From: a bacterium
Lineage (GTDB): Bacteria; Hinthialibacterota; Hinthialibacteria; Hinthialibacterales; Hinthialibacteraceae
Direction: 5' to 3'
DNA: 36,555 nt
NCBI GenBank assembly: GCA_016125385.1
Contig: WGLV01000062.1
Coordinates: 1-36,555, forward strand
The position numbers were made by a program, and so were the translations under genes. Below, one piece after another: positions 17,291-20,138 of this stretch (position 1 is its first letter; the number at the start of each line of letters is the position of its first letter). The notes below the pieces were generated by a model that saw nothing but the letters and a program-made list of their open reading frames with translations, did no database searches and was not told the origin of the DNA.

Positions 17291-17316
17291 ATCACGCATC
17301 AACCACGAATCTTCAA

Positions 17317-17349
17317 ACAGCCCGTTCTTTTGAGCGGGCTGTTTTTTTT
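17317..17349 (+). terminator. Intrinsic terminator after cold-shock gene
   Basis: ACAGCCCGTTC pairs with GAGCGGGCTGT (11 bp with one G-T wobble) around a TTTT loop, followed by eight Ts. It overlaps the last bases of the convergent radical SAM gene, whose stop is at 17348. Confidence 0.9.
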
Positions 17350-18154
17350 ATGCGTTCGCTTCTTCTTTCGAGCCGGGTCTCATCTTGACCAGAACGCCGG
17401 TTTCATCGCGCAGGCGCTGGGCGGCTGTCTGCATCCATTCATCGGGAAGCGTCTTCAGCGGCGTGGCCTCATAGGGGCGCTCGGCGGCGGAATGTCCCCC
17501 GCGCGACGCCACGTGCCACGCCCGTGGATATGGCCGCGATGGCGCGTTAAGTTGTACTTCGTCGGGCCCGATTCGTCCCACCAGGCGCAAGACGCCCTCA
17601 AACGCGTGCTGATTGAGTGGCATCATCATCACCTGTAAGCCTAAATACCCGCCATACGCCCGTTTGAATACTTCGATGTTCCTCAGGATTCCTTCGTGCG
17701 TTACGCCTGACGCGGGGCGGTTAACCCGGCACAACGACTCCTCATCGGCGGCGTCGAGTTTAACGAATACCTGATCGACCCCGCTCAAATCTTCGATGAC
17801 GCCGGGGTCGTTTAATCGGGTTCCATTGGTAAGCACGAGCTGCGGCAAGCCGCATCGTGATTTGAGCGCCCGGGACGCTTCGCCCAGGTTGAGCGCAAGC
17901 GTGGGCTCGCCACTGCCGCTGAACGTAATGATGTCCGACTCGCTCCACCGGCTGCGTTCAAAATCCTCCACCACCCGCTCGGTTGTGACGAACAGACAGC
18001 GCTCATTGGTGACCCGCTGAATCGCCCCCAGTTGGCAGTACACGCAGTTAAACGAGCAGACGGACTCATTGAGAATCAGGTCAACGCCCAGCGAACGGCC
18101 GACTCGCCAGGAGAAGACCGGACCATAAACTGTGGAGACCGCGTTATCATTCAT
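17348..18154 (-). CDS. Radical SAM protein (COG0731-like)
   Basis: This 268-residue protein has CSFNCVYCQLG, giving Cys33, Cys37 and Cys40 (C-X3-C-X2-C), the ligands of a [4Fe-4S] cluster that cleaves S-adenosylmethionine. The opening YGPVFSWRVGRSLGVDL is characteristic of the COG0731-like group of radical SAM oxidoreductases related to wybutosine biosynthesis enzymes. GSGEPTLALN is the glycine-rich SAM-binding motif. The natural substrate is unknown, because bacteria lack wybutosine. A short Gly/His/Ser-rich insertion near residues 215-230 precedes the C-terminal helix. The Shine-Dalgarno is weak (CGAAAG). The upstream region 18155-18346 has a short inverted repeat (GAGGCG/CGCCTC) that may fold in its leader. 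Confidence 0.88.
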   Translation of the reverse strand: MNDNAVSTVYGPVFSWRVGRSLGVDLILNESVCSFNCVYCQLGAIQRVTNERCLFVTTERVVEDFERSRWSESDIITFSGSGEPTLALNLGEASRALKSRCGLPQLVLTNGTRLNDPGVIEDLSGVDQVFVKLDAADEESLCRVNRPASGVTHEGILRNIEVFKRAYGGYLGLQVMMMPLNQHAFEGVLRLVGRIGPDEVQLNAPSRPYPRAWHVASRGGHSAAERPYEATPLKTLPDEWMQTAAQRLRDETGVLVKMRPGSKEEANA

Positions 18155-18346: not shown

Positions 18347-18375
18347 TTGACAAAAATGTCCAATTGAGATAATAT
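18347..18375 (+). promoter_or_regulatory. Near-consensus sigma-70 promoter
   Basis: TTGACA at 18347-18352 and TAATAT at 18370-18375 are separated by exactly 17 bp. This is one of the best matches to the housekeeping consensus in the window. Transcription would begin near 18382 and run through the hairpin at 18417-18453. Confidence 0.6.
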
Positions 18376-18554
18376 TATAAATTAATGTCTTATATTAAAC
18401 AAATCAATCGTTTCTATTGTGGAAAAACTGCCCTTCCGTGATGATTTCCACAAGGGAGATATTAATATAAAATACTTTTATAACTTAACTTAAATCAAAA
18501 TAAGATGAATAAACCCACAAAAAACAGGCTGGGGAAAATTAAAAAAAAAATGTC

Positions 18555-18582
18555 TTGACGACCACTATTTTTTGTATAGACT
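18555..18582 (+). promoter_or_regulatory. Second promoter candidate, upstream of three hairpins
   Basis: TTGACG at 18555-18560 and TAGACT at 18577-18582 have a 16-bp spacer; TATAGA at 18575 is an alternative with too short a spacer (14 bp). The start would fall near 18590, giving a leader of about 170 nt before the TTG start at 18762. Confidence 0.35.
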
Positions 18583-18761
18583 CTATCAAGTAAGCATTTG
18601 TAATATTATGTTTAACGATGAAGAAATCCGGATTGAACGGATTTCTAACAGGGATGGCAGGGCATGTGAGCATTTTTTGTTACCGCCCTGCTATTGTTAT
18701 GATTCGCCGAGGTGACGTTGAGCGGCGAATTCGCGGAAGAGAGCATTCAGGAGTTTGATCG

Positions 18762-19136
18762 TTGCCTCACGCGGTCATTAACGGCGCGTTCGATCTCGGC
18801 GGATTCAGCCGGAATTTTCAGCCGATTCACGAAGAGAGCGACGCCTGGATCATAAAAGCCGATGAAATCTATGTAGAGCGCCTCGGCGCCCGGGCCATTC
18901 TCCCGGTCGTAGTCATTGAAGAGGGCCACCCGCAATCGTTCTACATTCGTCTTGCCGCCGCCGAATCGGGCGACCGCACCACGATCCGGCTGGATCCATC
19001 CACCGATCCGATCAAAACAGCAGGGGTAAAGCGGTCGGTCGCCCGGGTCGCTGAGGAGATTCTTCGCACTCAACCCGGCCTGCGGCTTGACCGCCATAAC
19101 CTGACAGGACTCATACAGTCAAACTTCCCGGCCTGA
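18762..19136 (+). CDS. Protein of unknown function, 124 residues
   Basis: The likely start is TTG at 18762: an in-frame TGA at 18756-18758 rules out any extension, and AGGAG at 18749-18753 sits 8 nt upstream. The protein is soluble, with no signal peptide, and reads MPHAVINGAFDLGGFSRNFQ onward. It has a beta-rich middle (IKADEIYVERLGARAILPVV, then VIEEGHPQSFYIRLAAAESG) and a helical C-terminus (KRSVARVAEEILRTQPG). I do not recognise a family. The mixed alpha/beta pattern suggests a small single-domain fold. It is preceded by an unusual structured leader (18590-18740), so its expression may be tightly controlled. The opposite-strand frame at 18747-19097 is judged a shadow. It is separated by 150 bp from the next unknown gene in the same direction. 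Confidence 0.7.
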   Translation: MPHAVINGAFDLGGFSRNFQPIHEESDAWIIKADEIYVERLGARAILPVVVIEEGHPQSFYIRLAAAESGDRTTIRLDPSTDPIKTAGVKRSVARVAEEILRTQPGLRLDRHNLTGLIQSNFPA

Positions 19137-19286: not shown

Positions 19287-20012
19287 ATGGAATCGATTCA
19301 ACGGAATGAAGAGGCTGCATGCCGCGAGACCAAAGAATCCATCGAGAATCATCTCATTCAGGAATGGGGCATGTCGCCCGAAACCGCCCGCCGGTTCGTT
19401 CAGCGCCAGCCAGGCATCACTTTGAATGAGTCAGTCGAGTATATGCGAGCCGTTACCAAGGGATACCGGGTTCTGTACCGGCGCACCCACGGTCAACGCA
19501 TAAGCCCGATCTTGTTGCGCCGCGCAACGGAAATGGCGCTGGAGCGTACCGCTCGCCGCCGCCAGCCGTTGACCGAAAAAGACCTGATGTACCTGTTACA
19601 GCAGGCCCGCGACGCAACCGACGCGGATATCGCCCGCAAGAGCGATCCGTCCAGTGAAGAAGGCCGCGTACGGATTCTGCGGCCCCTGCGTGAAGCCGTG
19701 ATTTGTGAAGAAGACGCCGTGACCCGCAATCGTCTGATGGGCGTGGCAGACGTCTTCATCAAACACGGTTACGTGCTGAACAAACAGTTTCTGATCGACG
19801 ATTGCCTGCAACAGGAAGAAATTTTCCCCAATCGCCGCACCGTCGATGAAACGCTGGAAATTCTGCGTACTTCCTACGAAGCGCTCGGTTTTTCCAAGGA
19901 CGACGTCTTTATCGCCTCGGCGTATCTCGACGTTCCGTACGGTAAGGTAAGCACCGCGCGGACGCCGAAAAAAACCAATGGCAAGTCGTCCGATCCCCGC
20001 TTTATCTACTGA
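19287..20012 (+). CDS. Protein of unknown function, 241 residues, helical and charged
   Basis: GGGAGG at 19270-19275 lies 11 nt before the ATG, slightly far but acceptable. The protein is highly helical, with many Arg, Glu and Gln residues (for example RRATEMALERTARRRQPLTE near residues 80-98). No signal peptide, membrane segment or catalytic motif was seen. A C-terminal region reads VDETLEILRTSYEALGFSKD, suggesting a second helical bundle. The basic C-terminus (ARTPKKTNGKSSD) may be flexible or bind nucleic acid. I do not recognise a family. Its neighbours are another unknown protein and, across a terminator, the KtrB/KtrA pair. A strong terminator follows at 20035-20069. Confidence 0.75.
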   Translation: MESIQRNEEAACRETKESIENHLIQEWGMSPETARRFVQRQPGITLNESVEYMRAVTKGYRVLYRRTHGQRISPILLRRATEMALERTARRRQPLTEKDLMYLLQQARDATDADIARKSDPSSEEGRVRILRPLREAVICEEDAVTRNRLMGVADVFIKHGYVLNKQFLIDDCLQQEEIFPNRRTVDETLEILRTSYEALGFSKDDVFIASAYLDVPYGKVSTARTPKKTNGKSSDPRFIY

Positions 20013-20034
20013 CTCACGCATTGGATTGACTGAA

Positions 20035-20069
20035 AAAGCCGCGGTGGAATACTCCATCGCGGCTTTTTT
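20035..20069 (+). terminator. Intrinsic terminator after unknown gene 19287-20012
   Basis: AAAGCCGCGGTGGA pairs with TCCATCGCGGCTTT (14 bp with one G-T wobble) around an ATAC loop, ending in six Ts. It separates the unknown gene from ktrB. Confidence 0.9.
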
Positions 20070-20138
20070 CATGGGGGCGGGGCGGGCGTTATCACATCCC
20101 GCCGGCTCGGTTATAATAGTCATCGGCAATCCAAATCC

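Follow-up and report, generated by a model that had tools for sequence, protein, structure and literature searches.

Does the AT-rich stretch that precedes a small TTG-initiated gene in contig WGLV01000062.1 specify a structured RNA and, if so, where does that RNA begin and what does it act on? The stretch belongs to a 607-bp intergenic region between a divergent radical-SAM gene and a two-gene unit, and lies within the window, by which we mean the whole 36,555 nucleotides of DNA that were analysed. An initial annotation had read positions 18,347 to 18,761 as a candidate riboswitch-like leader or novel structured RNA, naming in it two promoters, a 9-bp upstream hairpin, three further stems of 9, 7 and 8 bp, an AGGAG and a TTG start. 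Every one of these elements is present where it was placed, and the region is indeed intergenic and AT-rich (26–35% G+C vs. about 55–60% in the surroundings). The features of the locus are as follows.

17348-18154, minus strand: radical-SAM gene, divergent from the two-gene unit
18347-18375, plus strand: upstream promoter, TTGACA-17-TAATAT
18417-18453: upstream hairpin, 9 bp with a 19-nt loop
18535..18554, plus strand: A-tract, UP-element-like, 5' of the −35 element
18555..18582, plus strand: sigma-70-type promoter TTGACG-16-TAGACT, predicted to drive the leader
18588..18761, plus strand: structured 5' UTR of about 174 nt, its start site predicted from the sequence
18622..18646, plus strand: hairpin 1, AGAAATCCG-7-CGGATTTCT, a perfect 9-bp stem
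18656..18702, plus strand: hairpin 2 (GGCAGGGC-21-GCCCTGCT) with its conserved 3' tail ATTGTTATG
18701..18731, plus strand: hairpin 3, GATTCGCCG-13-CGGCGAATT, with a perfect 8-bp stem at 18702-18730
18749..18753, plus strand: Shine-Dalgarno sequence AGGAG, 8 nt 5' of the TTG start at 18762
18762..19136, plus strand: target gene, 124 aa, TTG start
19287..20012, plus strand: second gene of the unit, 241 aa, no family assigned
20033..20070, plus strand: intrinsic terminator closing the unit, a GC-rich inverted repeat followed by TTTTTT

The genes 18762 and 19287, whose order is conserved downstream in relatives, would be co-transcribed from the 18555 promoter; the K+ transporter genes trkH/trkA come after the unit and its terminator. 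On the other side of the intergenic region, a hairpin resembling a terminator, with a long run of T's (GGGCTGTTTTTTTT, plus strand), occupies 17312-17353, just past where the radical-SAM gene, on the minus strand, has its 3' end.

The promoter and the extent of the leader

Six leaders were compared, that of the window genome (G000) and those of five relatives from other genera of the same family (G001-G005), in a class sampled by 14 genomes. Those relatives that bear names, SURF_12 and MAGs like it, were deposited under Omnitrophota; the relatives belong to the OLB16/SURF_12 lineage, which was earlier misclassified as 'Omnitrophica' (PMC10066038). In all six genomes an A-rich tract precedes the −35 element, and the A-tract with its TCTTGACG promoter lies 209-246 bp 5' of the start codon of the 18762 orthologue. 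When the intergenic region was searched by BLAST against the five relatives, positions 18535-18618, which comprise the promoter and the first transcribed bases, matched G001 with 80% identity and gave shorter matches to G002 and G003. By these computations the promoter is conserved across the family. Judged from its sequence, it should be strong and in use in vivo; its TTGACG −35 element also occurs in the rrn promoters of the lineage. Several tandem TTGAC promoter-like sites were seen 5' of the 16S gene of G004.

No match to the relatives was returned 5' of 18535 by the same search, so the upstream promoter and hairpin lie outside the conserved element. The upstream 9-bp hairpin is also statistically marginal within 18376-18540 (P 0.04-0.13; z −1.5 to −2.1). 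Its inverted repeat, TTGTGGAAA-N19-TTTCCACAA, sits in a stretch of 26% G+C and is not conserved in the relatives; read on the minus strand it includes TTTTCCACA, which resembles a DnaA box.

Downstream of the second promoter, folding clearly exceeds expectation. Positions 18588-18761 hold three perfect Watson-Crick stems that are 7 bp long or longer, compared with an average of 0.14 in dinucleotide shuffles, none of which (0/500) reached three. The fold of 18585-18775 has an energy of −64.9 kcal/mol (MFE z = −3.6; 0/200 shuffles as good), and a 150-nt segment over the leader, at z −4.3, ranks second among the 274 such segments sampled along the contig (overall mean −0.35, sd 1.21); first place goes to a segment that contains the intrinsic terminator near 20033. 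Across the six family leaders the folding z values are −3.6, −2.6, −2.1, −1.5, −1.1 and −1.0. The Shine-Dalgarno bases are partly paired in the predicted folds and have low predicted accessibility in most of the six leaders, with pairing that is weak and varies from genome to genome. Inspection by eye suggested that the loops of hairpins 2 and 3 could pair, over a length at which chance pairing is likely. The structured leader originally proposed for the whole of 18347-18761 is thereby confined to 18555-18761, where the conserved promoter, the conserved hairpin 2, the compensatory pairs of hairpin 1 and excess folding speak for it; 18347-18453, neither conserved nor statistically convincing, drops out.

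Hairpin 2 and its flanking hairpins

The most conserved part of the leader is hairpin 2 with its tail. The perfect stem of 7 bp at 18657-18691 reaches 11 bp with G-U and further pairs, and is extendable to 18653/18695. Hairpin and tail together follow the consensus AGCAGGGC-N22-GCCCTGCTWTTGTTRTG in four of the six genera (G000, G001, G003 and G005), at one copy per genome, the window copy beginning GGCAGGGC; in the BLAST search against the five relatives, the 3' side of the hairpin (18678-18704) is the only segment besides 18535-18618 to give a match, to G001 and G005. Eight pairs form in all four genomes (100% of 32 cells), and only 28-63% remain paired once the partner columns are slid, a control that favours structures derived from the same sequences. 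Three pairs vary on one side (consistent changes) and no pair on both; without two-sided changes, hairpin 2 could therefore be conserved as DNA. Its placement is regular as well: its distances to the promoter and to the gene are similar in the four genera, and the promoter-to-hairpin spacing is 68-71 nt in three genomes.

Genome-wide searches tie the motif to a single position. With one mismatch allowed, pattern matches that carry the hairpin arms occur only 5' of 18762 orthologues; other near matches are to the tail without the arms, and the remainder differ little or not at all from the controls. A covariance model ranks the four copies first, and its scores then fall from 48 to 23 bits. Over 290 genomes it returns the four known copies and one 27-bit match in G017, which is at chance level because a per-genome E of 0.004 predicts about one such match in 290 genomes. 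A leave-one-out model built from the three relatives picks out the copy in the window with a score of 35.3 bits (E = 3.4e-7), the next best match scoring 16.4 bits. Hairpin 2 is thus, by computation, a conserved element, linked in four genera solely to one downstream gene. In G002 and G004 the gene and the promoter are present and hairpin 2 is absent; other, shorter hairpins lie near its position there and may be its equivalents.

The flanking hairpins behave differently in sequence. At the position of hairpin 1, the sister genus G001 has AAAAAAACT-10-AGTTTTTTT, which differs from the window by three double (compensatory) changes in seven compared pairs and by a one-base loop difference, all within one genome pair. 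At the position of hairpin 3, G001 has an 8-bp stem of unrelated sequence (CGCCGCAA/TTGCGGTG), and the best-stem P is about 0.05 both there and in the window. Hairpin 3 is not evident in G003 and G005, whose flanks cannot clearly be equated with hairpins 1 and 3, and the stems of G002, G004 and G005 are idiosyncratic. That the flanks keep their pairing in the sister genus is suggestive, on a basis of six sequences. Covarying stems upstream of orthologues, which the initial annotation had looked to as its check, are accordingly present in a weak form: hairpin 1 offers compensatory pairs between two genomes and hairpin 2 one-sided changes only, six leaders being too few for a statistical test of covariation.

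The target gene and a possible mode of control

Each of the family's six genera encodes an orthologue of 18762, with protein identities of 50-59%; others occur in two order-level relatives (G006 and G007), which have no such leader, and in another phylum. Of the orthologues of G000-G005, five start with TTG and one with GTG; the order-level relatives use ATG. The 124-aa protein has no Pfam, NCBIfam or PDB-sequence match. Its AlphaFold model is confident (pLDDT 93), and a PDB fold search with this model gave no match with E below 0.02 and no recognised RNA-binding fold. In the other phylum (G025 and relatives; L085-L096), the next gene downstream of the homologue is of the Methyltransf_4 family (TrmB-type, trmB), confirmed by Pfam in all five loci tested; further loci show a similar trmB-type sequence downstream when read by eye. 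G025 also carries rsmD divergently upstream of its homologue. An RNA-related role for the 18762 product is plausible, and we regard the gene as putatively translation-linked.

On sequence evidence, we take the element to be a real one: a conserved, narrowly distributed, cis-acting structured 5' UTR, whose motif is new and absent from Rfam and whose kind is already known. It probably acts as a switch on the message of its own gene. The best explanation as a whole, to which we give roughly even chances, is that of a structured leader on a two-gene transcript in which a factor bound to hairpin 2 controls translation or stability. Positions 18588-18761 would then be the untranslated leader of the 18762 and 19287 transcript made from the 18555 promoter. 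Hairpin 2 and its 3' tail would serve as a sequence-specific recognition site, presumably as RNA rather than DNA, and hairpins 1 and 3 may be structural flanks, free in sequence, with pairing kept at least in the sister genus. Binding of a trans-acting factor to hairpin 2 and tail would alter access to the partly paired Shine-Dalgarno sequence and the weak TTG/GTG start. Control of translation initiation or of message stability would be the most likely mechanism, and its direction is something we can only infer. The low modelled accessibility of the Shine-Dalgarno bases and the non-AUG starts would fit control at translation initiation and prove nothing.

As to the factor, the presumed candidate we favour is the 124-aa product itself, acting autogenously, because its homologues in the other phylum adjoin trmB and so may handle RNA. 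Binding of this product to its own leader is nevertheless a tentative and rather doubtful proposition. In a more far-reaching version, which we consider distinctly unlikely, this would be a new autoregulatory RNA element: the GCAGGG/CCCTGC hairpin and UWUUGUURUG tail of the leader would be bound by the product of the gene that follows, a member of an uncharacterised trmB-linked family spanning two or more phyla. Should that be true, a new RNA-binding fold and the RNA it targets would come to light together. Confirmation of the leader alone would add an Rfam-absent motif from a sparsely sampled, uncultured lineage. Furthermore, it would offer a way into an uncharacterised protein family whose genes adjoin trmB in another phylum, a position suggestive of a function in RNA modification or in translation. 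As the core motif is known from four genera only, the scope of all this is narrow.

Alternative explanations and known systems

The region might be nothing more than the usual 5' UTR of a gene with strong expression, with a conserved promoter and hairpins that only protect the message or keep it open. The promoter is found in six of six genomes and hairpin 2 in four, the stems of three genomes are idiosyncratic, folding z is near −1 in several, and the −35 element is common to the lineage's rrn promoters, all as this explanation would have it. Mere protection, however, needs no exact arm and tail sequence held at similar spacing in four genera, and we think it a fairly unlikely account. An independent small RNA of about 115-125 nt, running from the 18555 promoter to hairpin 2 with read-through into the gene, would suit the strong promoter, the near-constant promoter-hairpin spacing and the partly U-rich tail, which is best in G005 (TTTTGTTATGG). 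But an intrinsic terminator or small RNA end should show a GC stem, a short loop and a U run. The terminator scan called none between the 18555 promoter and the 18762 gene, the loop of hairpin 2 measures 22-25 nt, other bases break up its U tract, conservation of the tail goes further than termination would need, and the contig's real terminator at 20033 looks different. This reading is improbable.

Since the arms of hairpin 2 are invariant, show no compensatory change and form a single site by a promoter, the AGCAGGG...CCCTGCT inverted repeat could instead be a DNA operator, bound by a transcription regulator 3' of the promoter. A dimer operator would not usually have half sites 22-25 bp apart and at variable spacing; the conserved tail is one-sided, and hairpin 1 has compensatory changes, so that an operator, too, has a poor chance of being the answer. 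A metabolite riboswitch, as "riboswitch-like" would imply, is very improbable. A long structured 5' UTR before a gene and without an Rfam match is what such an element might look like, yet no specific sign of one was found: the motif has one copy per genome, in four of six genera, one target and a narrow distribution, with no large conserved core resembling a ligand pocket and no recognisable expression platform of the terminator/antiterminator type. The structured, factor-bound leader of the two-gene transcript remains our preferred reading.

The initial annotation had recognised no known riboswitch class here, and Rfam 15 bears it out, with no match at gathering score in the window or in the loci of the five relatives; a permissive scan returned just two matches, greA (16 bits) and VqmR (13 bits), both far under threshold. 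A leader-peptide attenuator was rejected: of the frames over hairpin 2, none is furnished with a start codon in every one of the four genomes, and one with four Leu codons over the tail has none in G000 and G003. A dispersed regulon was likewise set aside, because pattern and covariance-model searches give one site per genome only.

Among known systems, 6S RNA (RF00013) resembles the leader in length class and in having its own sigma-70 promoter, but in these genomes 6S is located elsewhere, the best match being on G000:C2 (below cut-off, E 1e-5) and likewise away from this locus in G001-G005. The rrn boxB-boxA antitermination leader shares a TTGACG promoter, as found before the 16S genes of the lineage, and a hairpin followed by a short conserved tail; the leader tail TGCTWTTGTTRTG, however, is unlike the lineage boxA GTTCTTTGACA that stands 5' of the 16S genes (L079, L081, L072, L078). 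The autogenous leaders of the ribosomal-protein type can be likened to the present one by sequence features and differ in that the target here is not a ribosomal protein, but they have in common with it a single copy before one operon, a hairpin of conserved sequence, restriction to a clade, a strong promoter and a weak start codon.
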